Below are positions 37,608-62,764 of a stretch of DNA of 64,000 bases, one piece after another; within the stretch, counting starts at the first letter, position 1, and each line of letters opens with the position of its first letter. The notes under the pieces were generated by a model. The model had not been told where the DNA came from. It searched no databases and worked only from the letters and a program-made list of their open reading frames with translations. The translations under genes and the position numbers were made by a program. Source of the DNA: Oscillospiraceae bacterium (GTDB lineage Bacteria > Bacillota > Clostridia > Oscillospirales > Ruminococcaceae); the NCBI GenBank assembly GCA_017550285.1, contig JAFZPP010000007.1:62001-126000 (forward strand). Reading direction: 5' to 3'.

Positions 37608-39842
37608 ATGGCAAAGCGACTTTTAATCGGTGTCATTGTCTGTGAGACGGAACAGCTGATGCAGCGCCGCCTGATCAAGGGCATCACGGCGCAGGGCTAT
37701 GCACTGGACATGGATATCGCCGTATTTTCATGTATTACAAATATTCGGGAAATGACGCCCTATCAGAAGGCAGAATTCAATCTGTTCAACTATATGCATC
37801 TGCCTTCGTTTGACGGAATCCTGTATCTGCGTGACTCGTTCCACTGCGAGGAGGAGAAGCTGGTTCTCGATGCGCTTTTGCAGGAGCAGAAAATTCCGGT
37901 TCTCGTGCTGGATGACGATACGAGTCCGTTCCCGTATCTGATGATGGACGACCGTACCGGCTTTGCTGCAATCACATCGCACCTGATTCAGAAGCACGGA
38001 CTGACCGATCTGCTCTGCTTTACCGGCACCAGGGGACATTATACCGCAGAGCAGCGTGTGCTCGGCTTCCGTGACGCGATGGAGGCGGCGCATCTGCCTG
38101 TGACCGATGATATGATTCTCTACGGTGATTACTGGCACGATGCTGCAAGAGCACTTGCGCAGGAGCTGATTGACGGCAAGCGCAGACTGCCGCAGGGCGT
38201 CGTCTGCGGCAATGACCCGATGGCGATGGCACTCTGTCACGGCTTGATCGGCAACGGCATCCGCATTCCCGAGGATGTGATGATTACAGGCTATGATGCC
38301 TCACTGACCGAGACACGCAGCATGATTCCGCTGACAAGCTATGTCAGAAAGAATTTCCTGCTCGGCGCACAGGGCGTTGCAAAGCTGTATCAGATGATGA
38401 CCGGCGAGAGCTGTACGCTGACCGAGGCGGAGCGCGTGGAGGTCATTACGGGCGACAGCTGTTCCTGCGGCGTGGATGTGGACTATCTCAAGCATCAGAT
38501 TCGCGTCGAGGAGACGCAGGAGAGCTTCCGCACCATGTTCCGCACGAGCAATATGAGCAGTAATCTGACCAGCAAACAGACGCTTGACGAATGCATGACC
38601 GAAATCCGCAAGCATATCTATCTCATCCGCGATGTACAGGAGTTTTTTATCTGCCTGTGCGAGGACTGGGAGGGCGGCGGCGCGCTCGAGAATCCGGCGG
38701 AATACCGGCGCGAGGGCTATCCGAAGCATATGCTCTTAAAGCTCTTTGACGAGCCGGGCGGCGGTGTTGTGACTAAGCCCTTCCAGACAAGCAAAATGCT
38801 CCCGCGTCTGCATGAGGAGCGCGAGAAGCCTGCCTGCTATTTCTTCTCACCGCTGCATCATGACGACCGTGTATTCGGCATTGCGGCACTGAGCTTCGGC
38901 GAGCGGCTTGATACCTACGATCAGGTTTATTGCGAGTGGATTTCCGTAATCAATATTGCGCTGGAATTCGTCCGCATGCAGACCTATCTCAAGCGCTTCA
39001 ATAACCGCATCTATCTCTCGTCGATCCGCGATTCGCTGACGGGTCTTTATAACTACGAAGGCTACCGCAAATTCTCGCGCGAATGCTTTGAAGCAGCGAA
39101 GAATGAGCACCGCCGCTTCCTGCTGCTCTATGCGAGCTTTGATTCGCTGCGGCAGGTCAATGAGACCTACGGGCATTCCGAGGGCGACAGCGCCGTTACG
39201 GTGCTTGCCAATGCGATGAACAACAGCTGCACGACCTATGAACGCTGTGCACGCATTGAAGATGCGGAGTTTTCGATCATGGGCTATCAGGATTACGAGG
39301 AAGACGCCTGCCAGCGCATGATGTATGCGATTTCGGGCTATCTCGAACACTATAACCAGAGCTCCTTGAAGCCCTATAAGCTGTCGGCGAGCTTCGGCTA
39401 TTTCTGTGACTATATTGCACCGAATACAACACTTGAGGAGATTACGGCAATGGTCACGGCAAGGCTTGAGGAGAGCCGTGCGACGCGCCAGAATGAGAAG
39501 GCATCGCCCTATTACCGTGAGTTTGTCAATCTGCGCGAGCGAATCTACAGCAATCCGCAGGAGGACTGGAGCATTGATTCGATGTGCCGCGATCTGATTC
39601 TGAGCCGCGGTTATTTCCAGAAGCTCTATACGCGCTGCTTCGGCATCAGCTTTACGCAGGATGTCATCAACAGCCGCATTGAGCTTTCCAAGCGCCTGCT
39701 CTCAAGCACCGATTACAGCATCGCCTATATCGCAGATCAGAGCGGATACAGCAATTATGTCCACTTTATGCATCAGTTCAAAAAGATCGTCGGCATCACC
39801 CCGACCGAGTACCGCAAGCGCAAGCGGCAGACAGAGGACTGA
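37608..39842 (+). CDS. PBP1 (LacI-like) - degenerate GGDEF - AraC HTH fusion regulator
   Basis: A 744-residue cytosolic protein. Residues 1-~285 are a periplasmic-binding-type I effector domain as in LacI/GalR sensors (RRLIKGITAQGYALDMDIAV, GVVCGNDPMAMALCHGLIGN, DVMITGYDASLTE), but with no N-terminal LacI HTH. Residues ~300-470 are a linker/GAF-like region. Residues ~472-625 are a GGDEF domain beginning IRDSLTGLYNYEGY, whose signature is RIEDAEFSI (551-555 EDAEF) instead of GG(D/E)EF, so cyclase activity is unlikely. Residues ~645-740 are an AraC HTH (SIDSMCRDLILSRGYFQKLY, DYSIAYIADQSGYSNYVHFM). It has its own promoter and terminator. Probable sugar-responsive regulator; ligand and targets unknown. 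Confidence 0.9.
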   Translation: MAKRLLIGVIVCETEQLMQRRLIKGITAQGYALDMDIAVFSCITNIREMTPYQKAEFNLFNYMHLPSFDGILYLRDSFHCEEEKLVLDALLQEQKIPVLVLDDDTSPFPYLMMDDRTGFAAITSHLIQKHGLTDLLCFTGTRGHYTAEQRVLGFRDAMEAAHLPVTDDMILYGDYWHDAARALAQELIDGKRRLPQGVVCGNDPMAMALCHGLIGNGIRIPEDVMITGYDASLTETRSMIPLTSYVRKNFLLGAQGVAKLYQMMTGESCTLTEAERVEVITGDSCSCGVDVDYLKHQIRVEETQESFRTMFRTSNMSSNLTSKQTLDECMTEIRKHIYLIRDVQEFFICLCEDWEGGGALENPAEYRREGYPKHMLLKLFDEPGGGVVTKPFQTSKMLPRLHEEREKPACYFFSPLHHDDRVFGIAALSFGERLDTYDQVYCEWISVINIALEFVRMQTYLKRFNNRIYLSSIRDSLTGLYNYEGYRKFSRECFEAAKNEHRRFLLLYASFDSLRQVNETYGHSEGDSAVTVLANAMNNSCTTYERCARIEDAEFSIMGYQDYEEDACQRMMYAISGYLEHYNQSSLKPYKLSASFGYFCDYIAPNTTLEEITAMVTARLEESRATRQNEKASPYYREFVNLRERIYSNPQEDWSIDSMCRDLILSRGYFQKLYTRCFGISFTQDVINSRIELSKRLLSSTDYSIAYIADQSGYSNYVHFMHQFKKIVGITPTEYRKRKRQTED

Positions 39843-48786: not shown

Positions 48787-50202
48787 TTATTTGAGAATTT
48801 CACGTTTCAGGAGCGACAGATCAGCCGCATTGATATGACCGTTTCCGTCGAGGTCCGCCGCCTGCGGGACAGATGCTTCGCTTGTCATCAGATACTTTGT
48901 CAGCATGACGGCATCAGCGATTGTTACAGCTTTGTCGCCGTTGAGATCGCCCATCAGGGGCTTTTCAGGCTCTGTTGTGACCGTTGTCGTGGTTGTCGTT
49001 TCGGTTCCCGTTGTGGTCGTGGTTGTCGGCTGCGTCTCGGCAGGCTTGAATTCCTTGCCGGCGATTGCAAACAGATTCTTTTGCAGTTCTCTGTCCACGA
49101 GCTGGAATTCTTCACGGTCATAGTGCCCGCCGGGCGTAGACCACAGAACCGGACAATGCCCGCGCTTATAGGCTTCTTCGCAGACCGATGTGATAAAGCG
49201 GCGGACGGATTCCGGCTCTTTATTCTTGGTCGGGCAGCCGTATTCGCCGATGATGACCGGAATGCCTTTATCTGTGAAATGGGTCTTCATCATATCCATT
49301 TCGCTGCGCAGGGAGGCATAATCCTGATCGCTGCCCCATGTCGGGGTCGCCTTGCCCCAGTCGGCATCCTCCTCGAGAATTGCGAATCCGGCAGGGGAGT
49401 AATAGTGCACCGAGATTGCCATGCGGTTTGCAGGGTCATTCGGCATCTTGAAATACGGATCGCAGGTGCGGTCGATACCGGTGTTATAGCCGGAAATCAG
49501 CAGATGACGCTTCGGATTGTTGCCGCCGGTGCCGCGCACGACATCGACGAATGCCTGATTGATCTCATTACAGAGCGCATAGGATTCTGCCTTGCCTTCT
49601 GTTCCGCCCCACGGATTCCAGATTTTCTCCCAGCCGAGCTCCTCATTCTGACATTCAAACATGAGATAATCGCTGTAATTCTGAAAGCTCTCCGCGATTT
49701 GTGTCCACATCCGCTTAAAGCGCTTCATGCTCTCATCCTTGTTGTCCGGAAATTCATTGACCCAGCCCATATCCCAGTGGATGTTGATGATTGCATACAT
49801 GCCGCTGCCGATTGTCCAGTCTACAATCTGATGAATGCGTTCGTCCAGCTCTGCGTTGATTGTATAGGTACCGTCCTTGACCATGAGGTTCGACCATGCG
49901 ACAGGAATGCGCAGTACGCCGAAGCCCTCTTTCGCAATGCCCTCGATCATCTCCTTTGAGACGAGCGGGCTGCCCCACGATTTTTCGTAATCAGCGACGC
50001 ATTTGCCGTTGACCCAGTCACCGCAGGCTTCCATTGTGTTGCCGAGGTTGATGCCGATGCCCATGTCATGCACCAGATCCATTGTTGAAATATCACGCAT
50101 CGTTCCGACGGGTGATTCCGCAGCGGCACAGCTTCCTGCCGGAAGTGCAGAAAACAAAAGTACAGCTGCTGAGAATAAAGCACATATCCGTTTACTCAGC
50201 AT
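48787..50202 (-). CDS. Secreted GH5 endoglucanase-type enzyme with type I dockerin
   Basis: A 471-residue secreted enzyme: signal peptide ~1-27 (MLSKRICALFSAAVLLFSAL with A-rich cleavage), GH5 catalytic domain ~40-365 with MGIGINLGNTMEACGDWVN, RIPVAWSNLM, acid/base Glu187 in MFECQNEELGW and nucleophile Glu320 in IPVIIGEYGCP, a Thr-rich linker (~390-413) and a type I dockerin (~417-471) with the two duplicated Ca-binding segments GDLNGDKAVTIADAVMLTKY and DLDGNGHINAADLSLLKREI. A cellulosomal cellulase or hemicellulase; the substrate is likely cellulose or mixed-linkage glucan but GH5 is broad. Divergent AraC gene upstream. Confidence 0.93.
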   Translation of the reverse strand: MLSKRICALFSAAVLLFSALPAGSCAAAESPVGTMRDISTMDLVHDMGIGINLGNTMEACGDWVNGKCVADYEKSWGSPLVSKEMIEGIAKEGFGVLRIPVAWSNLMVKDGTYTINAELDERIHQIVDWTIGSGMYAIINIHWDMGWVNEFPDNKDESMKRFKRMWTQIAESFQNYSDYLMFECQNEELGWEKIWNPWGGTEGKAESYALCNEINQAFVDVVRGTGGNNPKRHLLISGYNTGIDRTCDPYFKMPNDPANRMAISVHYYSPAGFAILEEDADWGKATPTWGSDQDYASLRSEMDMMKTHFTDKGIPVIIGEYGCPTKNKEPESVRRFITSVCEEAYKRGHCPVLWSTPGGHYDREEFQLVDRELQKNLFAIAGKEFKPAETQPTTTTTTGTETTTTTTVTTEPEKPLMGDLNGDKAVTIADAVMLTKYLMTSEASVPQAADLDGNGHINAADLSLLKREILK

Positions 50203-51227: not shown

Positions 51228-52862
51228 TTACGAATCGGTGTCCTGATTGAGGAAACCTGTGAGCTTTTCGATTGCGGCAGAGATTTTCTGCGTTGCGCCC
51301 TGCGTGTCAAATACATTCTTATTGAATGCACCGAGTGCGGACATCGTCGTTTCGAGGATGCCGGTCAGCTGCTTGACACTGCCCTCGTCCATGACGGGGT
51401 TATTGTTGCAGAATACGATGATATTGCGCAGCAGCTCATTGACCATGTTCGTGCGCTCGCCGGTCGAATCCGCGGTTTTATTGATCTCGGCAACATCATT
51501 CTGAATCTCCGAGACTGCGATGCGGAGCTCAGTCGTGAACTGACGGAAGTCTGCATTGCCGCCGCCGCCGTTTTCCATTGCAGTCTTTGCGTGGTAGAGG
51601 CAGTTTTCAGGCATATTCAGTCCGCGGAAGATCGCCGTCGCCATTTCGCGGCAGGTTTTATAACCGCAGGCTGCGCAGTCGAGAGTGCGTTCCTTGTCGC
51701 TGGTCTTGTCCATAGAGGCAAAAATCGGCTCAAGCTGTGCGTCGCTCGGAACAAGGCTCGGTTTTGTTGCCTTGTAGCTGCGCAGGAAATCGCTGATTTT
51801 CAGCTCCTCGTCGAAGCGGCGGAAGAGCTTATCCTCACTGTTCCGGAATACGCCGCCGGTTGTCTTTCTGCGTGCACGCGCCTCGTCCTCGATGTCATGC
51901 ATGGTGCGGAAGACTTCAAAGCAGCTCTGGTCAGAATCAGACGCAGGACCCATATTGCAGCCGTATTCGCAGGAGAGAACGTCGAAAATGTGGGGCTGCT
52001 TCTGCTCCGGCATTTTGGCGTACATATCCAGCTCGCGGTAGACCTTCTGGACACCGTCCGAAACGGAGATTCTGAGATCCGGTGCATGCTCGAGCAGATT
52101 GTCGCGCATACCGCCCGGGCGGCAGTAGATCGAGCCGAGTTCGCCCTGAATATCATCAAATTTATAGGAATAATCCTCGACGGGATTCGATGCGATGCGG
52201 ATATCGTTGCGGTCGAAATATTCCATGAGGCGGCGATAAGTGATGCTGAAATCGACCAGACCTGTCTCTGCAAATTCGGTTTTCTTCGAGATACATGCAG
52301 AGAGAACTGCAATCGGGTTGTCGCGCCGCTGATATTCTTTGACATAGATCACGCTGCACGAAACAGGGGAGTGGAACGGCGAAAGATTCGTCAGCAGCTT
52401 CGGCTGATACAGCTCGATGTACTTGACAACCGCAGAGCACGGCTGCGTAATAAAGTTATTGAGCTGACCGTTTTCGAGTGCACGGAGATGCGCCCATGTG
52501 CAGATATCCGCGCCGAATGATGCGTCATAGACGCTGCATCCTTTGCTGCGGAACCAGTCGAGGATACCCTTCCACTTGGTCGGGTAACATGCCTTGATTT
52601 CCGGCGTGACCATGACGATCAGTTTCTGATCGCGGTGAATCGCGTTCATTGCGTCTTCGGTATCGTCAATATAGTCTCTTGCACCGTGCTTACATGCGCG
52701 GATACATTCTCCGCAGGCAATACAGCGCTCCGGATCGACACGGGTAATGTATTTGCCGCTGCCGATCTTCTGCGTAATATTCGCTTCCGGTGCAGGACAG
52801 GAACGGATGCAGGCATTGCAGCCGACGCATTTTTCAGGCTTTACAATAATAATCTCATTCAT
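51228..52862 (-). CDS. Putative sensory [FeFe]-hydrogenase
   Basis: A 544-residue protein. Two [4Fe-4S] ferredoxin motifs (CVGCNACIRSCP at 12-23 and CIACGECIRACKHG at 47-60) are followed by an H-cluster-type domain whose cysteines lie in TQPCSAVVKY (Cys142), LSACISKKTEF (Cys190) and LSCEYGCNMGPAS (Cys298, Cys302), variants of the catalytic-hydrogenase signatures. A further Fe-S motif CAACGYKTC plus Cys421 follows, then a coiled-coil tail (IAVSEIQNDVAEINKTADST) but no PAS domain. This is the arrangement of sensory or atypical [FeFe]-hydrogenases, so H2 or redox sensing is inferred rather than bulk H2 production. It lies 48 nt after the DivIVA-like gene. Confidence 0.85.
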   Translation of the reverse strand: MNEIIIVKPEKCVGCNACIRSCPAPEANITQKIGSGKYITRVDPERCIACGECIRACKHGARDYIDDTEDAMNAIHRDQKLIVMVTPEIKACYPTKWKGILDWFRSKGCSVYDASFGADICTWAHLRALENGQLNNFITQPCSAVVKYIELYQPKLLTNLSPFHSPVSCSVIYVKEYQRRDNPIAVLSACISKKTEFAETGLVDFSITYRRLMEYFDRNDIRIASNPVEDYSYKFDDIQGELGSIYCRPGGMRDNLLEHAPDLRISVSDGVQKVYRELDMYAKMPEQKQPHIFDVLSCEYGCNMGPASDSDQSCFEVFRTMHDIEDEARARRKTTGGVFRNSEDKLFRRFDEELKISDFLRSYKATKPSLVPSDAQLEPIFASMDKTSDKERTLDCAACGYKTCREMATAIFRGLNMPENCLYHAKTAMENGGGGNADFRQFTTELRIAVSEIQNDVAEINKTADSTGERTNMVNELLRNIIVFCNNNPVMDEGSVKQLTGILETTMSALGAFNKNVFDTQGATQKISAAIEKLTGFLNQDTDS

Positions 52863-52910
52863 CTTATCTTACTCCTCTATATAAATGATCAATCATGTTT
52901 TATCTTTATA

Positions 52911-53978
52911 TTACGACCTGCCGTCTGCGATTGCATCGGCTTGTGCTGCAAGAGCGGCGAGATTGGAAACTGTATGATTTGCCGGTTTGGATGCCTGCGT
53001 ATTCTGCTGCGGCGGTTCAAATCCCATTCCCGCGATTGCATTTGCCATCTGCTGCAATTTAGCAAGCTCTGCGCTGCGCTGTGCTTCCGGAGAAATCTCT
53101 TCGGCGTCGGCAGCGGGCGGGGCAATCTCTTCATGCGGCACCGGCTTGATTTCAGGCGGAGGCGGCAGCTGCGGCTGGACGACCTCCGGCGCACGGAATA
53201 CGGGTGTACCGCCGGAACGGAGAATCTGATCTGTGCTGCTGAGAATCTGCGCAGTATTGCTGACTGCCTGCATATTCTGCCTGTGCATCTGATCAAATGC
53301 CTGCTGGATTGTCTGCAACTGTGCGGAGAGCTTTTCGACATCTCCGAGCAGATATGCACGCAGATTGCCGGATGCGACCTCGATTTCCGCGCTGCGATTC
53401 TGCGCATCTGCAATAATCTTCGCGCTCTGAACCTCTGCATCATAAATGATTTTCTTTGCGCTGTTATTTGCATCTTCCACGATGTTCTCGGCAAGCATGC
53501 GGCTGTTTTCTTCCACTTTCGCTGCATCCTTTTCCGCAGTATGGATGATATTGCGCGCTTTTTCCTCAACCTCGGCAATCGCGGCATGTGCCGGCTTTTT
53601 ATCAGTGTCTGCCTCGTAGGCGGAGAGTTTCATGTCTCTTTCATGGAGCTTGTCACGCAGCGAAATGATCTTGTTTTTCAGTGTCTCGATTTCCTGATCC
53701 TTCTGTGAAAGCTCTGCTCCGGCTGACTGGAGCTTTTCAGTGAGCGTGACCTCTTTTGCTTGCAAATCGGTCAATTTCGTGCGGTGTTCTTCAAGCATTT
53801 GCTGTAGAGATTCAAATTCACTGCCGCCGCTCTGAAGCGTCTCGATCAGCTTCTTGCTGTCGGCAAGCTCATTTTGCAGACCGAAAATCTGTGCACTGAG
53901 CTGTTCAAATCTTGCTTCGACACCGGCGCGGTCATATCCGCCGAACGGAACCGTTTTCATAAATCTTGATTCAGACAT
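52911..53978 (-). CDS. DivIVA-like coiled-coil protein
   Basis: A 355-residue cytosolic protein. The N-terminus VPFGGYDRAGVEARFEQLSA resembles the DivIVA/GpsB-type start, followed by coiled coil (~30-120, LQQMLEEHRTKLTDLQAKEV), a second helical part rich in Ala/Glu (EKARNIIHTAEKDAAKVEEN, ~140-250), and a Pro-rich linker (QPQLPPPPEIKPVPHEEI) before a helical C-terminus. No enzyme domain. It is the first gene of a two-gene unit with the hydrogenase; whether they work together is unknown. Confidence 0.75.
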   Translation of the reverse strand: MSESRFMKTVPFGGYDRAGVEARFEQLSAQIFGLQNELADSKKLIETLQSGGSEFESLQQMLEEHRTKLTDLQAKEVTLTEKLQSAGAELSQKDQEIETLKNKIISLRDKLHERDMKLSAYEADTDKKPAHAAIAEVEEKARNIIHTAEKDAAKVEENSRMLAENIVEDANNSAKKIIYDAEVQSAKIIADAQNRSAEIEVASGNLRAYLLGDVEKLSAQLQTIQQAFDQMHRQNMQAVSNTAQILSSTDQILRSGGTPVFRAPEVVQPQLPPPPEIKPVPHEEIAPPAADAEEISPEAQRSAELAKLQQMANAIAGMGFEPPQQNTQASKPANHTVSNLAALAAQADAIADGRS

Positions 53979-54108
53979 GCCCTGTTTCCTCCTGTTGCAG
54001 ATAATTGAGACAAAAAAACAGTACTGTTTCGCAGTAGCCTGTTGTACGTATAAATCCGGATAAATTATCCGAATTGTATTGATTTTCTGTATTTTCTTTT
54101 ATATAGTT

Positions 54109-54137
54109 ATTATACAACAGAATTCATGAAAAGTCAA
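54109..54137 (-). promoter_or_regulatory. Sigma-A promoter of the DivIVA-like/hydrogenase unit
   Basis: Minus-strand TTGACT (54132-54137), 17-base spacer, TATAAT (54109-54114). Start near 54102, about 124 nt before the DivIVA-like ATG. Confidence 0.75.
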
Positions 54138-54253
54138 TAGAACTTCACAGGATTTCCATATCTTTTTTATGGTTTTATACATTTGATGCCAAAACAGCCG
54201 GATATCGTGTGTATTTTTGCAAGATTGTACAATTCCCGCTTGCGTACAGGTAT

Positions 54254-54289
54254 AAAAAGAGCTGCTGCACATACCATGCAGCAGCTCTG
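54254..54289 (-). terminator. Terminator of the binding-protein/GGDEF unit
   Basis: AGAGCTGCTGCA / TGCAGCAGCTCT, 12-bp stem (54258-54288) followed on the minus strand by T; 27 nt after the stop at 54316. Confidence 0.85.
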
Positions 54290-54315
54290 AAATATGAACG
54301 TATTTGCGCAGAAAA

Positions 54316-55548
54316 TCAGATGTTCATAACCTGGAAGATCTGTCCGCCGCCTGCACGCTTTGCATTACGGAGGACGTTATCCATTTTCACCAGCAGCGAG
54401 TTGACGTTCAGGCAGTCACCTGCGAGGTAGTGATAGGTACTGCCGGAGACGGTCAGCTGAACTGTCAGGTTCAGAATCGTGTACGGGCTGGTCATGACAT
54501 TGACGATGTTTTCGACGAGGCGGATGACCTGCGTATCAGATACGGTTCTCTTGAAGACGAAGCAGAACTCGTTACCGGTGATGTTGTAGATATCCGCGAA
54601 CTGATCGAATTCTTCACGCAGACGCTCTGCCATTTGTGCCAGATATTCGTCGCCGAAATCATAGCCGTAGGTATCGTTGATACTGCGGAAGTTGTCAAGG
54701 TCGAAGACCGCGATGTTGAACTGCTCGGTGGAAAGGCGTTCGCCGATATCCTGCTCCAGCGCGTAACGGTTCTTCAGACCGGTCAGAATGTTGGAGACCG
54801 CGATGTCTTCCATCTTCTCACGGGAACGCATGAGCTTCGAGGATGCATCCGCGAACTGTGCGCTCTTGCGGCTGATTTCCTCGCTTGCACGCTTGTTGTA
54901 TCTTGCAGCCAGGAAAACCGCGATTTCACCGATGATAAGGATCGCTGCCAGAACGGCAAGGATCAGGTACATGTTGCGCGCAGCGTCATCGGTACGCTTG
55001 TTCGCGTCTGAGGTAGCAATCGAAATCGAGGAAACCATCATTTCCGCGGCAGCCGTCTGAAGCGGAGCGATCTCCTGCTCGTAAACGTCCTTCAGAGAAT
55101 TCTGGAATTCTTCGATTTTGGAGTCGTCACCGGTTTTGAGGATCGCGGTCAGCTCATCGTTATACTCGTTCATCTTGACTGCATATGCATCCAGATAAGC
55201 ACGCGCATGACGGAAACGTCTGACAGCCAGCTCATTGTGCACACCGACTTTTTCATATGCATCCATCTTCGCCTGGCAGGCAGGGAGGATGGTGGTGATT
55301 GCCGTCATATGACCCTTGGTGCTTCCGATGCCGGCGATCATGTCGCTCAGCTCATTGTTTGCCTGACTGAGCATATTGTTCGCACTGTTGATCAGGTTGA
55401 TCTCAGAAGATGTGTTTTTGAATGTGCGGTGTGCAGCTGCGTAGTTGAAGTAAAGGAGGGTCATGTTCAGCGTCATGATAACCGCCAGTGCAATCGCAAT
55501 GACGATATAACCGAAGCTGCGGAAATCTGTATTATTCTGTTTAGCCAT
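54316..55548 (-). CDS. Membrane GGDEF-domain protein with degenerate active site
   Basis: A 410-residue inner-membrane protein: TM1 ~13-34 (IVIAIALAVIMTLNMTLLYF), an extracellular four-helix-type sensor ~35-190, TM2 ~193-214 (YLILAVLAAILIIGEIAVFL), a coiled coil and a GGDEF domain ~245-410. The domain keeps NILTGLKNRYALEQDI and FDLDNFRSINDTYGYDFGDEY but the signature is ITGNEFCFVF (TGNEF at 324-328) instead of GG(D/E)EF. Loss of both glycines' pattern makes diguanylate cyclase activity doubtful; a GTP-binding sensor or scaffold role is possible. It follows the repeat-containing binding lipoprotein by 17 nt, so they probably form a sensing pair. Confidence 0.88.
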   Translation of the reverse strand: MAKQNNTDFRSFGYIVIAIALAVIMTLNMTLLYFNYAAAHRTFKNTSSEINLINSANNMLSQANNELSDMIAGIGSTKGHMTAITTILPACQAKMDAYEKVGVHNELAVRRFRHARAYLDAYAVKMNEYNDELTAILKTGDDSKIEEFQNSLKDVYEQEIAPLQTAAAEMMVSSISIATSDANKRTDDAARNMYLILAVLAAILIIGEIAVFLAARYNKRASEEISRKSAQFADASSKLMRSREKMEDIAVSNILTGLKNRYALEQDIGERLSTEQFNIAVFDLDNFRSINDTYGYDFGDEYLAQMAERLREEFDQFADIYNITGNEFCFVFKRTVSDTQVIRLVENIVNVMTSPYTILNLTVQLTVSGSTYHYLAGDCLNVNSLLVKMDNVLRNAKRAGGGQIFQVMNI

Positions 55549-55565
55549 TTTCGTATTCTCCTCCC

Positions 55566-57818
55566 TTATTTTCTGGTGTATCCGGCAGGATCCAGCAGCA
55601 GCTTGATTTCATTGGAGTTGAGATTGCTGAGTGTGACATAAGCTGCGCCGGTATCAATGGTACGGCCGACATTATCATTGGAAAGGAGTCTACCGGAGTA
55701 GTAAACGCCGAGGTAGCCCATGTTGTAGGGGTTCTGAACGATCAGACCGGTCAGGGTACCGTTCTTCAGATAGGTCTGTTCGGTCTCATTGGCATTGTAG
55801 CCGATAATTGCGACCTTGCCGACCATATTGGCTTCTGCAACAGCCTCGCAGGCGCCGATTGTCGAGCGCTCACTGGTTGTAAAGATAACCTTGATATTAT
55901 GGTTTGTATCGTTGCTGAGAAGCTGGAGAACCTGCTGCTTTGCAACATCGGATTCACCCTTGCAGTTCAGAACAGTCTGAATCGGCTCGATTTTCTCCGT
56001 GCTGACATTTTTGGTTGTACTGGTGCCCTCACCGGTTGCATTCAGAATCGCCTGAACAGCAGTGGATGCTGCGAGGGAGGAATCACCGCCGTTCGGACCG
56101 GCAGCCTGACCGGCAGCCTGTGCAGCGATACTCGGATCGGTGATGCCCATTTCGATACAGGTGGTGGCAGCGGCATTTGCAGCAGCCTGTGCGATACCTG
56201 CCGGAGGCGCACCCTGTGCAGCAGCGGTTCTTGCAGCAGCCTGTGCTGCCTTTGCAACCTCTTCCGGAATCTCGGCACTGCCGCTCTCCTGTGTATTTCC
56301 GCCCTGTTGCGTATCTCCGCCTGCCTTGAGTGTGCCGTCTTCGATTGCCTTGGAGACAGCTTCAGCAGCAGCTGCGCCGGCAGCCTGTGCATCGCCGCCG
56401 TTCATGCCGGCAGCCTGACCGGCAGCCTGACCTGCTACACCGGGATCAGCGATGCCGTTCTCGATTGCAGCCTGTGCAGCGGCATTTGCGGCAGCCTCAG
56501 CGATTGCGGCTGCAGGTGCACCGTTTTCCTTTGCGGATTTTGCAGCAGCCTGCGCAGCATCAGAAACGACCTGCGGATCTGCCTCAGCAGCGGTGGTGTT
56601 GTCCTGCTGCGGCGTTTCCTGCTGCTGACCCGTTGCTTTTTGAACGATTGCAAGCGCTGTCTGCGATGCAGCCTGAGAGTCACCGCCGTACATACCGGCT
56701 GCCTGACCTGCCGCTCGCGCTGCGATACCGGGATTTGAGCCTGCGTCGATTGCAGCCTGTGCAGCGGCGTTTGCAGCAGCCTCAGCGATTGCAGCCGCAG
56801 GTGCACCGTTATCCTTTGCAGCTTTTGCAGCAGCCTGTGCAGCTTCATCAACAGAATCGACAGAAACGACTGTTTCTTCTGTCTTCTCTTCCTTCTTTTC
56901 GCCTGTCATGATCTCACGGACAAGCTGTGCAGCTCGTTCACCGTTACCGCCGTTTGCACTTGCGGCAAGCTCTGCGGCTTTTGCCGTGGTTTCAACATCC
57001 ACACCTGCACTCGATGCACCGGCGGCTGCTGCATTTGCAACTGCCTGTGCGATATCATCCGGAGATGCACCGCCCTGCGATGAGATATAAGCTGCGGATT
57101 TTGCCGGATTCAGAACGGCAGGCGGCAGACCGCTGTCTTCGCCGAGACCCTGCATTTCCTCCAGCTTCTGCTGTGCTTCAGCCTGTCTCTGTGCGTTATA
57201 CTCCGTCAGTGCCTTTGCACGGACAAGGCTTTCGAGCGTACTCTGGAAGCCGCTCAGTCTGTCCTGTGCGGAGAGCGCCGTATCGGAATCTGTGACGACG
57301 ATTGCCTTGTCATCATACATATTATTAAAGAATTCAAATGCATGACGCGCTGCGATTGAGCCGCTGGAGACGTTGCTTGTACCGATGTAGGTACGGCGGC
57401 CGGTGAACGTGGTATCCGCATCAATCGCAAGAACCTCGATGCCTGCCTGTACGGCAGCCTGCAAATCGTCATTCAGTGCATCCGGATCGTTCGGAGCGAT
57501 AACGATTGATTTTGCGCCGTCATTGATTGCCTCGCGGATCAGCTTGCGCTGTGTGTCAATATCAGTGATCTGCTCTGCGGTCTTGTAAATGACCTCGTAG
57601 CCGAGCTCTTCACCTGCTTCCATGGCACCCTGCTTGACATAATCCCAGAACTCAAGTCCCTTCGACGAGCCGATGACGTAGACACGGGCGCCCGTTAAGT
57701 CTACAGCACCGTTCGCCGCTCCGTCAATCAGACCGCAGCCGGTTGAAGAAAGACAGACAGCGAGTGCAAGACTGCAAAGAGCCGTTCTGGCGAGTGGGGT
57801 CCTGCTCTTCTTTTTCAT
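55566..57818 (-). CDS. Sugar-binding-type lipoprotein with inserted Ala-rich repeat domain
   Basis: A 750-residue lipoprotein (signal peptide with lipobox SSTGC, Cys28) of the periplasmic-binding-protein type I (RbsB-like) family. The N-terminal lobe (residues ~43-205: VYVIGSSKGLEFWDYVKQGA, IREAINDGAKSIVIAPNDPD, GIEVLAIDADTTFTGRRTYI) and C-terminal lobe (~608-745: LNCKGESDVAKQQVLQLLSN, KVIFTTSERSTIGACEAVAE, VAIIGYNANETEQTYLKNGT) are split by about 380 extra residues (~225-605) made of four repeats of ~75-80 residues rich in Ala/Gly (see repeat entry). It is followed 17 nt later by a membrane GGDEF gene; no ABC transporter genes are near, so signalling rather than import is inferred. Confidence 0.88.
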   Translation of the reverse strand: MKKKSRTPLARTALCSLALAVCLSSTGCGLIDGAANGAVDLTGARVYVIGSSKGLEFWDYVKQGAMEAGEELGYEVIYKTAEQITDIDTQRKLIREAINDGAKSIVIAPNDPDALNDDLQAAVQAGIEVLAIDADTTFTGRRTYIGTSNVSSGSIAARHAFEFFNNMYDDKAIVVTDSDTALSAQDRLSGFQSTLESLVRAKALTEYNAQRQAEAQQKLEEMQGLGEDSGLPPAVLNPAKSAAYISSQGGASPDDIAQAVANAAAAGASSAGVDVETTAKAAELAASANGGNGERAAQLVREIMTGEKKEEKTEETVVSVDSVDEAAQAAAKAAKDNGAPAAAIAEAAANAAAQAAIDAGSNPGIAARAAGQAAGMYGGDSQAASQTALAIVQKATGQQQETPQQDNTTAAEADPQVVSDAAQAAAKSAKENGAPAAAIAEAAANAAAQAAIENGIADPGVAGQAAGQAAGMNGGDAQAAGAAAAEAVSKAIEDGTLKAGGDTQQGGNTQESGSAEIPEEVAKAAQAAARTAAAQGAPPAGIAQAAANAAATTCIEMGITDPSIAAQAAGQAAGPNGGDSSLAASTAVQAILNATGEGTSTTKNVSTEKIEPIQTVLNCKGESDVAKQQVLQLLSNDTNHNIKVIFTTSERSTIGACEAVAEANMVGKVAIIGYNANETEQTYLKNGTLTGLIVQNPYNMGYLGVYYSGRLLSNDNVGRTIDTGAAYVTLSNLNSNEIKLLLDPAGYTRK
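56004..57146 (-). repeat. Four tandem Ala/Gly-rich protein repeats inserted in the binding lipoprotein
   Basis: Codes for residues ~225-605. Unit 0 (~233-305, most divergent), unit 1 (~322-397), unit 2 (~415-495) and unit 3 (~518-596) share the pattern QGAxPxxIAxAxANAAA, then DPxIAxxAxGQAAGxxGGD and a helix ending in VQK/ILNATG. Units 1 and 2 are also close at DNA level, pointing to recent duplication. Linkers between units are Gln/Thr/Gly-rich (GQQQETPQQDNTTAAEADPQ, DTQQGGNTQESGSAEI). Confidence 0.85.
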
Positions 57819-57918
57819 TTAACTTTCCTCCTGTAAATGAATATCAGATGAACCTTTTATGAATCAGCGGTCTGCTTTTGGAAGCACCTCCGCTGTAGTC
57901 ATTCACTTAATATTATAT

Positions 57919-57947
57919 ATAATAGCACATTTGCGAAAAAATTTCAA
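57919..57947 (-). promoter_or_regulatory. Sigma-A promoter of the binding-lipoprotein/GGDEF unit
   Basis: Minus-strand TTGAAA (57942-57947), 17-base spacer, TATTAT (57919-57924). Start near 57912; the ~95-nt leader contains an AGCGG/CCGCT hairpin (about 57865-57895). Confidence 0.65.
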
Positions 57948-58158
57948 GGTATTTTATTTTATACACAAAACAATTTTAATCTATCAGATTTAGCAATATT
58001 GCACAAATGCAAAGTGAAACAATACAAAAAAATATTTTGACTGACGTTCCGAAAAGCTACGAAATTCCAGAAAAAACAGCTCTTTCTGTTTTAGAAACCG
58101 CAAATGACAATGCACCTGCTTTTTTAAGCGGATACGGCAAATATGATATATCTCTTAC
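57948..58158. other. AT-rich spacer between divergent units
   Basis: Between the lipoprotein unit (minus) and the kinase operon (plus). Low GC with AT runs; apart from the two promoters nothing coding or structured is convincing. Confidence 0.6.
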
Positions 58159-58187
58159 TTGACAATCGGAAAAAAACATGGTATAAT
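58159..58187 (+). promoter_or_regulatory. Sigma-A promoter of the LRR-kinase-vWA-PP2C operon
   Basis: TTGACA (58159-58164), 17-base spacer, TATAAT (58182-58187): exact consensus. The ~85-nt leader holds a CCGGAA / TTCCGG hairpin (58202-58238) with an inner GCGT/ACGC stem. AGGAGAG precedes the first ATG. Confidence 0.88.
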
Positions 58188-58279
58188 GACAACGTGATAA
58201 ACCGGAAGGGGCGTATTATACCCTGACGCACATTCCGGCAGACAACAGTTATACAGAATGAAATTCAGGAGAGTTGACT

Positions 58280-59332
58280 ATGCAGTGTGAGAAATGCCGT
58301 GCCGAACTCCCTCCGAACAGCATTTCCTGTCCGGAGTGCGGCGCACCTGCCCTCCAGACGATCGAGGGCTTCGATAATACCCAGCATATTCAGCTGCAGT
58401 TGAAGAATATGTTTAAGGAATATTCATACAAGCTGTTTCTCAGATATGAGGGCAGCCTGATGTTCCACGAAAAACGCTTCACTGCGCTGCTGAATGATTT
58501 CATTGCAGAATATGATAAGGAACGCAAGCTGCTGCGCGGTATGGTTGAGGACGGAATCCTCGGCGTGCTGCTTTCCGAGCAGTCGAACCGCGATATGGCA
58601 ATCACAAAAGCCAGAAGCATCATGCTCGGCGAGAAATTCCTTTCCGAGAATGCTGCGGAGTTTGTCCTTGCAAGCCTGACCTATATGCTCGGCTGGCCCT
58701 ATGATTCGCCGATGCGTGTGCCGGAGAAGACCGAAGAGGATGAGGCGCCGCAGGGCAGGGTACGACCTGTCAGCGTCAACGACAATGTTTTCAGCCGTGC
58801 TGCGGCAAATAAGTTCCGTGTTTTTTCGAGAAACGTGGTTATTCCCGACGGCTGCACCAAGATCGAGGAATTCAGCTTCGACGGCTTCGGCAATCTGCGC
58901 TCCGTGCAGCTGCCTGATTCGCTGCTTGCAATCGGTGAGTATGCATTCTCCAACTGCAAGCATCTGCGCCTGATTGAGCTGCCTTCTTCGCTGCGCCTGA
59001 TCGGTCAGGCGGCGTTTACGCAGTGTGAGAAGCTCGTCCGCATTGATCTGCCGTCCGGCATCATGGAAATCGCAGACAGCACGTTTTCGTTCTGCCGGAG
59101 CCTTGAGGTCGTTGAGATTCCGGATACGGTCAGCAGCATCGGTGAGCAGGCGTTTGCAGGCTGCGAGATGCTCCGCAAGCTGACGCTTCCCGACAGCATT
59201 AAGTTCATTGATAAGAACGCTTTTGCGTATTGCCCGCGCCTGACGATTGTCTGTGTGGAGAATTCGTATGTATACAAATACTGTCTCAGCAATGCAATTC
59301 CGGTCGAGACCTACCGCCCCGGCTCGCGCTGA
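58280..59332 (+). CDS. Zinc-ribbon + leucine-rich-repeat (BspA-type) protein
   Basis: A 350-residue cytosolic protein (no signal peptide) from ATG 58280. A zinc ribbon opens it (CEKCRAELPPNSISCPECG, residues 3-21), then a helical middle (FKEYSYKLFLRYEGSLMFHE, ~45-145), then about five LRR_5 units of the pattern LPDSLLAIGEYAFSNCKHLR / LPSSLRLIGQAAFTQCEKLV / IPDTVSSIGEQAFAGCEMLR. LRR_5 domains are usually on secreted surface proteins; an intracellular form with a zinc ribbon beside a kinase suggests a protein-interaction role. First gene of the operon. Confidence 0.85.
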   Translation: MQCEKCRAELPPNSISCPECGAPALQTIEGFDNTQHIQLQLKNMFKEYSYKLFLRYEGSLMFHEKRFTALLNDFIAEYDKERKLLRGMVEDGILGVLLSEQSNRDMAITKARSIMLGEKFLSENAAEFVLASLTYMLGWPYDSPMRVPEKTEEDEAPQGRVRPVSVNDNVFSRAAANKFRVFSRNVVIPDGCTKIEEFSFDGFGNLRSVQLPDSLLAIGEYAFSNCKHLRLIELPSSLRLIGQAAFTQCEKLVRIDLPSGIMEIADSTFSFCRSLEVVEIPDTVSSIGEQAFAGCEMLRKLTLPDSIKFIDKNAFAYCPRLTIVCVENSYVYKYCLSNAIPVETYRPGSR

Positions 59333-59388
59333 GCGGCAGATCGCAGGATTGCGGTTGAACTGATTTCAATATAGGAGGACAGATTCAC

Positions 59389-60732
59389 ATGGTTGAGCTT
59401 TCGATCGGTCAGGAAGTCGAAATGGAATACGGCGGAAAGGCTGAGGTTCTCGGTGTGATCGGCGGCGGCGGACAGGGTACTGTCTACGTTGTACGTTATA
59501 ACGGAATGAAATGGGCGCTCAAGTGGTATGATATTGATAAGATGAAGAACCCCAAGGCATTCCGCAAGAATATCCAGAATAACATCAGTGACGGTCCGCC
59601 GAGCAACAAATTCCTGTGGCCGAAATATCTGACGAAGGAAACTGCCGACGGTACCTTCGGTTATCTGATGGAACTGAAGCCGGAGAGCTTCGATTCCTTT
59701 GTGGATATCCTCAATACATATAAGCTGTCCGTCAACCCGCTGACCGGACGTTCCACGAAAACACCGGTCCGCTTCACCAGTCTCTATGCGATGGTGACGG
59801 CGGTTATCAATATTGTCAATGCCTTCCGGCAGCTTCACCGCGCCGGCAAGAGCTATCAGGACCTGAACGACGGCGGCTTCTTCATCAATATGGATACCGG
59901 CGCCGTGCTCGTCTGCGACTGTGATAACATCGCGCCGGACGGCAGCAACTTCGGCATCGGCGGCAAGCCCGGCTATATGGCGCCGGAGGTTGTCCGCGGC
60001 GTTGCAAAGCCGAATGTTCAGACGGATAAATATTCGCTGGCAGTCGTGCTTTTCAAGCTGCTGTTCCGCGGTGATCCGATGGAGGGCGAAAAGGTTGTCA
60101 GAGATGTCTGCCTGACCGAATCCTCCGAGCTCAAGCATTACGGTCAGAATGCCGTGTTCATCTATGATCCGGACAACGCAAGCAACCGTCCTGTCCGCGG
60201 CATACATGACAATGTCATCAAGTTCTGGCGGATTTATCCCGATTATGTCAAGGAGGCGTTTATCCGCTCCTTCACGCTCGGTATTTCCGATCCGAATAAG
60301 CGTATTATTGAGAATGAATGGCAGAAAATCTTTATCCGCCTGCGCTCTGAGATCATTCAGTGCAGCTGCGGCAGAACGAATTTCTGCTCGACCTTCAAGC
60401 AGCCGGATTCCAAGTCGTTCAAGTGCCCGCAGTGCGGAACAATCTTTGAGACGCTGAAATTCAGCAACCGCAAGAACCGTATGCCGCTGTATCTCGGCTG
60501 CGTTTTCTACGAATGCGAGATTGATCCGGACTCCGAGGACTTCCAGACGATTGCCGGAGAGCTTGTCGAGAACCGCCTGAAACCCGGCGTGCTCGGCTTC
60601 AAGAATATGTCCAGCAAAACATGGAGCGTCAAAATGCCGGACGGTGACTTCTACGACATTCCGCCGGGAAAGGGCTTCCCTGTCTGGCAGGGACTCGTAA
60701 TCAATTTCGGTGATGTAACAGCATCGCTGTGA
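59389..60732 (+). CDS. Ser/Thr protein-kinase-like protein with C-terminal zinc ribbon
   Basis: A 447-residue cytosolic protein. The kinase core is residues ~15-310: Gly loop VIGGGGQGTVYVVR, Lys45 in KWALKWYDI, catalytic loop SYQDLNDGGFFIN (Asp158; the usual HRD and the Mg-ligand Asn are altered), VLVCDCDNIAP with Asp177 (DFG position), and GGKPGYMAPEVV. A zinc ribbon follows (CSCG at 325-328 and CPQCG at 346-350), then a beta-rich C-terminal domain. This altered kinase plus zinc ribbon is the type found with TerY-like vWA and PP2C proteins. Activity is likely but the unusual catalytic loop needs testing. Confidence 0.88.
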   Translation: MVELSIGQEVEMEYGGKAEVLGVIGGGGQGTVYVVRYNGMKWALKWYDIDKMKNPKAFRKNIQNNISDGPPSNKFLWPKYLTKETADGTFGYLMELKPESFDSFVDILNTYKLSVNPLTGRSTKTPVRFTSLYAMVTAVINIVNAFRQLHRAGKSYQDLNDGGFFINMDTGAVLVCDCDNIAPDGSNFGIGGKPGYMAPEVVRGVAKPNVQTDKYSLAVVLFKLLFRGDPMEGEKVVRDVCLTESSELKHYGQNAVFIYDPDNASNRPVRGIHDNVIKFWRIYPDYVKEAFIRSFTLGISDPNKRIIENEWQKIFIRLRSEIIQCSCGRTNFCSTFKQPDSKSFKCPQCGTIFETLKFSNRKNRMPLYLGCVFYECEIDPDSEDFQTIAGELVENRLKPGVLGFKNMSSKTWSVKMPDGDFYDIPPGKGFPVWQGLVINFGDVTASL

Positions 60733-60776
60733 TGCTATGCTATAGATTTGCATATCATGAAAGGGAGATCTGAGTT

Positions 60777-61799
60777 ATGAGCAATGAAAAGAAAGCTGCT
60801 TCCGCTGCGGAGACCTCTGCACAGGCAAAGGCAAAGGCAATCGAGGAAGCTGCTGCAAATCTGATGAAATCCGCTGCCGGCGCAGCTGCAAAGCCGGCAG
60901 AATCCGCATCTGCTGCCTTACAGGGACTGGCGGCTGCGGCAGATCAGACTGCTGAGACAGCGAAGAAATCTGCAAAGGATGCTGTTCAGGAGGCAAAGGC
61001 TGCTTCCAAGAATATCGCTTCTGCTGCGGATGATCTGCTCGATTTTGATGATGACGATCCGCTGAGCGCGACCAGCGTCTCGAAGAAGAGCCTTGTTATC
61101 TTCTTCCTGATCGACACCTCGCGCAGTATGGTCGGCAAAAAGATCGGTGAGCTCAATACCGTTATGGAGGAGCTGATTCCGGAGATCCGCAGAGTCGGCG
61201 AGGCAGATACCGACGTCAAGGTCGCTGTTCTGACCTTCGGTACGCAGGTTCGCTGGATGTACACCGAGCCGATCCTGATTGAGGACTTTGAATGGTCCCG
61301 TCTGCGCGCAGACGGCGTGACCAATATGGGTGAAGCATTCCGTGAGCTGTCTGCAAGAATGTCCCGCAACAGCTTCCTGAATTCGCCGTCGCTTTCGTTT
61401 GCGCCGGTTATCTTCCTGATGACGGACGGCTATCCGTCTGACGATTACAAGGAAGCGCTTGAGGAGCTCAAGCAGAACAGCTGGTATAAGTACGGTCTGA
61501 AAGCAGCTCTGGGCATCGGCAGCGAAGCAAACGATGAAATGCTTGAGGAGTTTACCGGTTCCAAGGATACGGTTGTGCATGCGTATTCCGGCGGTCAGCT
61601 CGCGCAGATGATCAAGATTATTGCTGTTACCTCCGCACAGATCGGCAGTAAGAGTATGACGCTGTCTGACGACGTCAACCACGAGCTGAATGAGGAAGAG
61701 GTCCGTGCTGCAAAGCAGAAGCTGCTCGGTCAGCAGATTCAGGATTCGATGACGAATCTCGGCGATGCAGATGCGATCTCCCTTGATACGGGCTGGTAA
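60777..61799 (+). CDS. TerY-like von Willebrand factor A domain protein
   Basis: A 340-residue cytosolic protein with an Ala/Lys-rich helical N-terminus (~1-90, AASAAETSAQAKAKAIEEAA) and a vWA domain (~105-300). The MIDAS motif is complete: FFLIDTSRSMVG (DxSxS at 113-117), GVTNMGEAFRELS (Thr) and FLMTDGYPSDDYKEAL (Asp). TerY-type vWA proteins with this arrangement accompany a kinase and PP2C. Position 44 nt after the kinase gene and 53 nt before the PP2C gene gives the same operon order. The N-terminal Ala-rich part is unusual. Confidence 0.88.
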   Translation: MSNEKKAASAAETSAQAKAKAIEEAAANLMKSAAGAAAKPAESASAALQGLAAAADQTAETAKKSAKDAVQEAKAASKNIASAADDLLDFDDDDPLSATSVSKKSLVIFFLIDTSRSMVGKKIGELNTVMEELIPEIRRVGEADTDVKVAVLTFGTQVRWMYTEPILIEDFEWSRLRADGVTNMGEAFRELSARMSRNSFLNSPSLSFAPVIFLMTDGYPSDDYKEALEELKQNSWYKYGLKAALGIGSEANDEMLEEFTGSKDTVVHAYSGGQLAQMIKIIAVTSAQIGSKSMTLSDDVNHELNEEEVRAAKQKLLGQQIQDSMTNLGDADAISLDTGW

Positions 61800-61852
61800 T
61801 TCTGTACTTCGGCGTTATTTCTCTGAATTAAGATATAAGGAGGATTGTTGCG

Positions 61853-62764
61853 ATGTTCGGCGGTTTCAGCCATTCTGTAATCGGCGCAAGCCATGAAACC
61901 AGCGGACTGGTCTGTCAGGATCATTCGGCATACGAGGTAAATGAATACTATTCCGTTGCCGCAATCGCTGACGGTCACGGCAGCAAGAAGTATTTCAGAA
62001 GTCATTTCGGTTCCCAGTTTGCTGTGGAAGCGGCACTTGAAACGATTCGTGCATTTTATAAAGATCCGGAACAGTTTGAGCAGACATTTCCTGCAAATCA
62101 CAAACTGATTCTGAAGAATATGAAAAAGCAGATCATTGCAAACTGGAATACACGGGTGCAGGAGCATCTTGCCGGCAATCCGGTTCGGCTTGCGGAATCA
62201 CAGAAATTTACAAAGGAAGAATTTAAGGAAATTCCGCAGGAATCTTATTACGGTACGACTCTGGTTGTTGCGGTCTGCGGACGCGGGTTTCAGTTCGGGC
62301 TGCAAATCGGCGACGGCAGCCTTGTAGCACTTTTTGAAGACGGCGAGCCGGTTATGCCCATGGTGTACGATGAATCTGCGCCTGCCAATATGACAGCATC
62401 TATGTGCAACAGCAATGCCGCTTCGATGTTCAACAGCTTTTATATCGAAGGCAAAAAGGCGATTGCAATGTATGCTTCCTCTGACGGACTGTATACGTCC
62501 TTCAGCAATGAGGACGATTTTCTGGAATACCATCTGATTATTACGAGTCAGCTCGATAATCTGGATGTATTTGCGCAGTCTGTCAAGAAAAATCTGACCA
62601 AGCGTTCACATTTCGGCACAGAGGATGATATCTCCCTTGCATGCATCTGTGACATGGAACTGCTTGGCGAAAAGGCAGAAATGCTCAAGGCGAAGGTTGC
62701 CGACATGAAAGCACATGCCAAAGAACGGAAGGCGGCACGTCTTGCAGCTCTGAAAAATACGTAA
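61853..62764 (+). CDS. PP2C-family protein phosphatase
   Basis: A 303-residue metal-dependent Ser/Thr phosphatase. Motifs: VIGASHETSGLVCQDHSAYE, AAIADGHGSKKYFRSHFGSQ (metal-binding DGHG), YGTTLVVAVC, GLQIGDGSLVALFEDGEPV, MYASSDGLYTSF and DDISLACICDME near the end. The SHxTSGxxCQD opening is the one seen in PP2C members of TerY-type triads. It presumably reverses phosphorylation by the kinase two genes upstream. Third member of the triad here. Confidence 0.9.
   Translation: MFGGFSHSVIGASHETSGLVCQDHSAYEVNEYYSVAAIADGHGSKKYFRSHFGSQFAVEAALETIRAFYKDPEQFEQTFPANHKLILKNMKKQIIANWNTRVQEHLAGNPVRLAESQKFTKEEFKEIPQESYYGTTLVVAVCGRGFQFGLQIGDGSLVALFEDGEPVMPMVYDESAPANMTASMCNSNAASMFNSFYIEGKKAIAMYASSDGLYTSFSNEDDFLEYHLIITSQLDNLDVFAQSVKKNLTKRSHFGTEDDISLACICDMELLGEKAEMLKAKVADMKAHAKERKAARLAALKNT

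Follow-up and report, generated by a model that had tools for sequence, protein, structure and literature searches.

Binding proteins act on cyclases, kinases and chemoreceptors generally, according to the available part of PMC9602780. One such example is XylFII–LytS of Clostridium beijerinckii, in which a type I binding protein acts on a four-helix membrane receptor; in the available part of PMC9769921, XylFII binds the four-helix domain of LytS, and the GlnH–GlnX pair is described as comparable. Another is NspS–MbaA of Vibrio cholerae and Sinorhizobium meliloti, where a binding protein steers a membrane GGDEF protein (PMC9993111, available part). The locus described here lies in a window of 64,000 nucleotides, the whole stretch of DNA that was analysed, and belongs to a Ruminococcus-like gut bacterium. 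Its lipoprotein has the fold, the lipobox and the Pfam match in common with ABC-importer type I sugar-binding proteins (RbsB, 4rxt, 4wut), yet differs from them by an insert of ~390 residues in the C-lobe, and its surroundings form a signalling locus instead, with no transporter among the seven neighbours scanned. The likeness to XylFII–LytS, as far as that source describes it, lies in a type I binding protein that would likewise act on a four-helix membrane receptor, and XylFII chains are among both the sequence and the fold matches of the lipoprotein. The two systems differ in that the LytS output is a histidine kinase, whereas a degenerate GGDEF domain is found here, and in that the solved XylFII chains are of ordinary length (306-316 residues) and the present lipoprotein carries the insert. 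NspS–MbaA combines a PotD-like binding protein with a GGDEF-EAL receptor, and the available part of its source describes no such insert. By analogy, the lipoprotein–receptor pair would fit XylFII–LytS-like signalling, in which a binding protein acts through a four-helix receptor. A literature search for a described case of the insert found none, and the available part of PMC9540692 contains nothing on the lipoprotein gene.

The lipoprotein gene and the parts of its product that belong to the ordinary binding domain are the following:

55566..57818, (-) strand: binding lipoprotein, one open frame of 750 codons (750 aa), type I, RbsB-like, Peripla_BP_4
57735..57818, (-) strand: lipoprotein signal peptide, residues 1-28, with lipobox STGC and Cys28, read from the sequence
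57417..57686, (-) strand: first segment of the N-lobe, residues 45-134, from AlphaFold2 (AF2) secondary structure and homology to 4rxt/4wut
57219..57392, (-) strand: first part of the C-lobe, residues 143-200, ahead of the insert, from 4rxt/4wut homology and AF2
55734..55982, (-) strand: second part of the C-lobe, residues 613-695, behind the insert, from 4rxt/4wut homology and AF2

The lipoprotein has a two-part Peripla_BP_4 match (E 6.3e-40; 137.8 bits, cut-off 35.1), and this match, together with Cys28 of the lipobox, which is nearly invariant in 82 aligned rows, bears out an earlier view of the protein as lipid-anchored and RbsB-like. The best solved relatives by sequence are 4rxt and 4wut, which cover residues 46-212 and then 638-744, or parts thereof. 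The full-length AF2 model, built with 82 rows, has a mean pLDDT of 87 and a pTM of 0.65. In Foldseek it aligns with 4rxt as a two-lobed alpha/beta fold (E 4.3e-11), and for both 4rxt and 4wut the TM reaches 0.91 over the target, with alignments of 705-706 columns for targets of 290-295 residues. This value suggests that the binding-protein fold is intact despite its interruption. With the full-length lipoprotein as query, the own genome yields a single match at E <= 0.001, the gene itself.

In linear sequence, the insert (residues 216-606) lies between the two binding-domain stretches, and the preliminary description placed it exactly between the N- and C-lobes, at the hinge, where it could change lobe opening and ligand response. 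The predicted topology puts it elsewhere. In the AF2 model, the N-lobe strands are 45-50, 75-80, 104-107 and 128-132, with a return to this lobe near 691-728, and the C-lobe strands are 143-146 and 171-176 ahead of the insert and 613-618, 642-647 and 669-674 behind it; the assignment of strands to lobes and the lobe limits follow RbsB topology. The insert comes after strand 171-176, is flanked by helix 182-224 and strand 613-618, and begins ~75 residues beyond the first lobe crossing (~134-142). As modelled, it is a helix-to-strand loop within the C-lobe and not a hinge element. A hinge insertion, which the split of the domain in linear sequence would favour, is contradicted by this predicted topology and by the Foldseek alignment to 4rxt/4wut, and its probability is close to negligible; an altered ligand response by that route is therefore unlikely. 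The other role suggested in the preliminary description, contacts at the cell surface or between proteins, stays plausible. In the type I fold, helix-to-strand loops lie at the pole distant from the cleft, and the lipid-bearing N-terminus enters the first N-lobe strand at the other pole. Because the fold topology places such loops opposite the anchored end, the insert would point outward, at the C-lobe pole away from both cleft and lipid anchor.

The insert itself is made up of a helical extension of the lobe and four Ala-rich units of ~75 residues each:

57147..57218, (-) strand: stalk, lobe helix 182-200 extended to residue 224 (AF2 helix 182-224, block-mean pLDDT 86-92)
56898..57116, (-) strand: Ala-rich unit 1, residues 235-307 (AF2 helices 233-248, 253-271, 275-288, 293-305)
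56628..56861, (-) strand: Ala-rich unit 2, residues 320-397 (AF2 helices 320-336, 341-359, 363-376, 381-396)
56334..56579, (-) strand: Ala-rich unit 3, residues 414-495 (also modelled alone, pLDDT 97.3)
56031..56270, (-) strand: Ala-rich unit 4, residues 517-596 (dN/dS 0.16 against the nearest relative)

The repeat insert reported in the preliminary description is thus present as four units in the protein and as repeats in the DNA, where a 107-nt family (3 copies, 69-100%) and a 75-nt family (3 copies, 61-100%) occur. A unit model, itself built in part from these four units, recovers all of them at E 2.7e-26 to 1.5e-22. The full model predicts four helices per unit, in line with the helical character proposed before (block-mean pLDDT 81-95), and linkers of low confidence at residues 312-317, 400-411, 500-514 and 597-604 (pLDDT < 50). 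Modelled alone with 11 aligned units, unit 3 reaches its pLDDT of 97.3 with a pTM of 0.86 and helices at 2-18, 23-40, 46-59 and 64-81. The structure prediction proposed earlier for the insert hence yields four-helix bundles, and the units are predicted to be compact, Ala-packed beads on flexible linkers. Short helices packed through Ala and Gly in repeated bundles may pack together, and the number of units is variable, so beads that self-associate by swapping helices between molecules and thereby cluster the receptor have been considered; unit 3 alone is predicted as a closed bundle, which argues against such swapping, and this explanation is highly unlikely.

The units resemble no described domain in the libraries searched, as the novel consensus claimed for them would have it. 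A Pfam scan of six units gave a best E of 0.034, under the cut-off, and NCBIfam, searched with the whole protein at E <= 1, returned only binding-protein models and none for the units. There was no significant match for the units in a PDB sequence search (best E 0.58) or in Foldseek against PDB folds (best E 2.4) and viral folds (best E 1.2). Designed helical repeat proteins (6xr2, DHR54, DHR64) were among the best but insignificant fold hits (E 2.4 to 8.6), with a TM over the bead unit of at most 0.51. In 11 rows, 15 unit columns are invariant or nearly invariant, every one of them Ala or Gly, and the 391 residues of the insert include 122 Ala, 43 Gly and 2 Tyr, with Phe, Trp and His at zero. 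Because the conserved columns are all Ala or Gly and the aromatic residues are only two Tyr, no conserved binding site is apparent in the unit sequences.

The distribution of the units is very narrow. In the genus, the lipoprotein gene is present in 15 of 30 genomes and Ala units in 4 of these 15: this gene has four, two relatives have three apiece, and one is visible in a relative cut at a contig end; the nearest relative (L002/L031) ends inside the insert at its contig end. The nearest orthologues therefore do carry the insert, two of them complete and one contig-cut. The remaining 11 genomes have 14-123 residues at the insert site and no Ala units, and 10 of these inserts are, by reading, P/G/Q-rich repeats. 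Regular P/G/Q peptide repeats are seen in the same loop in other species (L006:1393-2946, L012:688-2214, L008:763-2217), for example GGPPADAQQGNA in L006. In a second genus, represented by R. flavefaciens MC2020 (L038), 82 of 120 genomes match the L038 protein, and in 5 of the 120 the insert site holds shorter units, singly or in pairs (61-68 residues as cut), so that the repeat number, which it had been proposed to check, varies.

A profile comparison of the two unit families gives a score of 36.6 and 91.8% probability over 41 columns, corresponding to the first two helices, against 16.5 for the best of 100 column shuffles and 12.7 for the reversed control. A model from which L038 was left out gives the isolated L038 unit 21.5 bits, where 2000 shuffles reach at most 7.4. 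Against homology, this model also scores a pyruvate kinase at 16.7 bits, and in whole-ORF scans it leaves the L038 gene unreported both under default filters and with filters off (L124/L131), and L126-L128 likewise. On these comparisons, the unit families of the two genera are probably homologous, and convergence was judged unlikely from the profile comparison against shuffles. In broader draws of genomes, which overlap and include the own genome, genomes with a unit match at E <= 0.001 number 1 of 394 for the order, 2 of 396 for the family and 1 of 398 for the phylum, every such match being confined to the lipoprotein gene. The profile search suggested at the outset thus returns this gene only at that threshold. 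Outside it there are four weak matches: in G003 a frame of 306 aa that no Pfam model matches (E 0.0455), in G027 one of 51 aa (E 0.00877), in G1279 a broken one (E 0.00138) and in G1266 a pyruvate kinase (E 0.00859), the last rejected as a chance match. This adds a small helical domain of very narrow range, unmatched in the libraries searched. A mobile or phage module was also considered and rejected, as unit 3 had no tblastn match among phages and plasmids; a viral contig scan for the unit gave 74 pattern matches and no relative. An assembly artefact is unlikely, because intact frames in other genomes carry the same units and unit 4 is under selection.

The insert site is a length hotspot. 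Equivalents of residues 201-612 comprise 4-412 residues (median 23) in 82 rows, including the cut L002, and the long versions are mostly P/G/Q repeats. In a tree of the lobes only (81 rows, L002 left out), the three complete Ala-unit genes form one clade (100/99), which adjoins five genes with P/G/Q repeats (8 rows, 100/92; 13 rows, 100/97), and L038 with two kin that have other chains forms a separate clade (100/100). The first units of the three Ala-unit genes are 51-75% alike, and the last unit here is closest to the last unit of L003 (65%), whereas the last unit of L004 is 64% identical to unit 3 here and 57% to unit 4. Within the present gene, unit 1 stands furthest apart, at 36-42% to units 2-4. 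A recent duplication had been suggested for units 1 and 2; in coding order it is instead units 2 and 3 that are closest to each other (69% at the amino-acid level), and since their dS of 0.73 is about twice the C-lobe dS of 0.36 between this gene and its nearest relative, the copy is old.

Unit 4 is under purifying selection, with a dN/dS of 0.164 against L002 and no indels, compared with 0.113 for the C-lobe. In comparisons with L003 and L004, dN/dS is 0.20-0.47 for units in which 73 codons or more are aligned, while the C-lobe has 0.12 and 0.27 and the N-lobe 0.08 and 0.26, respectively; two poorly aligned units (16 and 27 codons; dN/dS 0.69 and 0.93) were set aside, and dS is high throughout these comparisons (0.77 to 3.8). 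As these unit values mostly exceed that of the C-lobe, most of the insert evolves faster than the C-lobe, yet more slowly than the neutral rate. Such rates bear on the view that a permissive distant loop gathers functionless repeats through replication slippage and recombination, with the Ala units as one product. The wide range of lengths, the different repeats among close kin, the higher dN/dS of most units and an inter-unit linker that changes fast, with QAQQGG repeats in L002 against a different linker here, are all compatible with it. The closeness of unit 4 to the C-lobe in dN/dS, the correspondence in order of the three units of L003 and L004 (75, 66 and 59%) and the similar units of a second genus run counter to it, and functionless gain is considered unlikely. 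Comparably low in probability is a specific binding module for plant fibre, peptidoglycan or a partner protein, which would couple contact with sensing. Purifying selection on unit 4, the high predicted confidence of the unit 3 fold, the presence of 1-4 repeated, probably homologous units in two genera and the lipoprotein nature of the gene product speak for this module, but the all-Ala/Gly conserved columns look like core packing, the aromatic residues amount to two Tyr, and most gene-holding genomes of the genus (11 of 15) do without the units.

The gene directly downstream encodes the presumed signalling partner:

54316..55548, (-) strand: membrane protein with degenerate GGDEF domain, from profile scan and neighbour survey
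54565..54585, (-) strand: motif NITGNEF, replacing the GG(D/E)EF signature, from an alignment of relatives

By eye, the partner has an outer domain of ~160 residues between two membrane helices. The D/E position of GGDEF is needed for cyclase activity. In the partner it falls within TGNEF, and 54 of 57 relatives have N there, so that the GG(D/E)EF signature of a diguanylate cyclase is absent; the 57 were selected by their match to the GGDEF part of the window (46 of 52 listed neighbours and 11 from further searched loci). Judged by these sequences, the partners form a putative receptor family whose GGDEF domain is degenerate and whose genes pair with that of a binding lipoprotein. The own genome has 26 GGDEF places, 12 of which show GGDEF or GGEEF by motif search, and no PilZ was found in it. 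A 4HB_MCP_1 match occurs in 17 of the 57 partners; the partner in the window has none and matches TarH weakly (E 0.019, residues 194-250). More distant kin, L066:3924-8100, has as neighbour a 4HB_MCP_1 protein (E 1.1e-28) with no GGDEF match, and a GGDEF-EAL gene lies upstream.

The pairing of lipoprotein and partner genes is well supported. Of 93 distinct binding-protein ORFs, 68 are followed immediately downstream by a GGDEF-like or sensor-like gene; three of these (L046, L066 and L074) were matched by little more than the sensor part. The remaining 25 comprise eight that open a tandem pair, with the GGDEF- or sensor-like neighbour after the second copy, one (L085) overlooked by the script, two at contig ends, seven whose 388-393-aa neighbour lacks a cyclase match, and seven with no partner within reach (L057, L070, L083, L090, L097, L100 and L104). 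These last seven count against the docking reading. All these counts depend on the ORF adjacency rules of the script, and many of the loci are metagenome assemblies. Tandem binding-protein genes before a GGDEF gene, as in L039, L040, L041, L047, L048, L052, L060 and L081, may form a two-input sensor. Five other frames of the own genome (638, 641, 648, 659 and 660 aa) have type I binding-domain and GGDEF matches, both over the cut-off and assigned to one frame by shared contig, neighbourhood and frame length. The two domains appear to be fused in these frames, which supports a functional link between them. A 744-aa frame at 37608-39842, (+) strand, with a GGDEF match, a type I binding match under the cut-off and, by eye, an AraC-like tail, is perhaps also a fused sensor.

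These observations are consistent with a ligand-sensing lipoprotein that docks on the adjacent receptor and carries the insert as an outward spacer or contact arm, a reading to which a little under an even chance is given. The lipid-anchored lipoprotein would signal rather than transport, binding a probably sugar-like ligand between its two lobes. In the loaded state it may dock on a presumed outer four-helix domain of the adjacent membrane protein, which would relay the signal to the degenerate GGDEF domain inside the cell. The helical stalk of the C-lobe would present the four independent beads outward, clear of the hinge, where they may serve in the wall layer as a spacer or contact arm, keeping distance, aiding solubility or making weak or avid contacts with wall or proteins. 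Relatives would fill the spacer job with P/G/Q-rich repeats.

Evidence for the role of the arm comes from the lengths of the paired proteins. In 68 pairs, at least one gene being counted twice (L004/L017), the partner frame before the catalytic part comprises 223-272 residues, counted from the open-frame start, while the insert ranges from none to 391. Since partner length is steady while the insert varies so widely, the insert is unlikely to serve for docking. Insert and partner length do correlate weakly (Spearman 0.29, p 0.015; rows uncorrected for kinship), so that some co-variation may exist, which counts against this reading. A spacer or contact arm is the preferred explanation, at a little under even odds, ahead of a specific binding module, of neutral gain where the loop is permissive, and of self-association. 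The mostly different repeats that relatives carry at this distant C-lobe loop likewise make the beads likelier a spacer or contact arm than part of a ligand switch. A point against the spacer is that selection on the units is also compatible with a specific binding role. If the insert is functional, it bears on how surface sensors of these gut bacteria sit in the wall. A bolder extension holds that the loop is a fixed, fast-changing display site at which species swap repeat modules as a species-specific surface arm, the beads being a new domain family; this is decidedly unlikely, and if true the arm would set which wall polymers, neighbours or phages the sensor meets.

Upstream of the lipoprotein gene lies a divergent cluster:

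58274-62764, (+) strand: LRR/zinc-ribbon, kinase-like, VWA and PP2C genes, from profile scan

The kinase-like protein has a weak C-terminal zinc-ribbon match. Among seven neighbouring genes scanned (51228-62764: FeS, coiled-coil, GGDEF, LRR, kinase, VWA and PP2C), no permease or ATPase was found. Of 48 loci that span 11.5 kb or more, drawn from 76 contig loci with the binding protein, 28 have kinase, VWA and PP2C together. We take this cluster to resemble the TerY-P triad, and a literature search for the TerY triad gave no match. The locus can be described as a conserved sensor locus of lipoprotein and degenerate-GGDEF receptor, often accompanied by kinase, VWA and PP2C, in which one sensor loop changes wholesale between species. 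In two related genes (L059:3582-4739 and L067:5947-7104), a GGPPEG stretch stands soon after the lipobox and not in the loop. Elsewhere in the window, 48787-50202 on the (-) strand encodes what is, by eye, a secreted glycoside-hydrolase-like protein with a dockerin-like tail.
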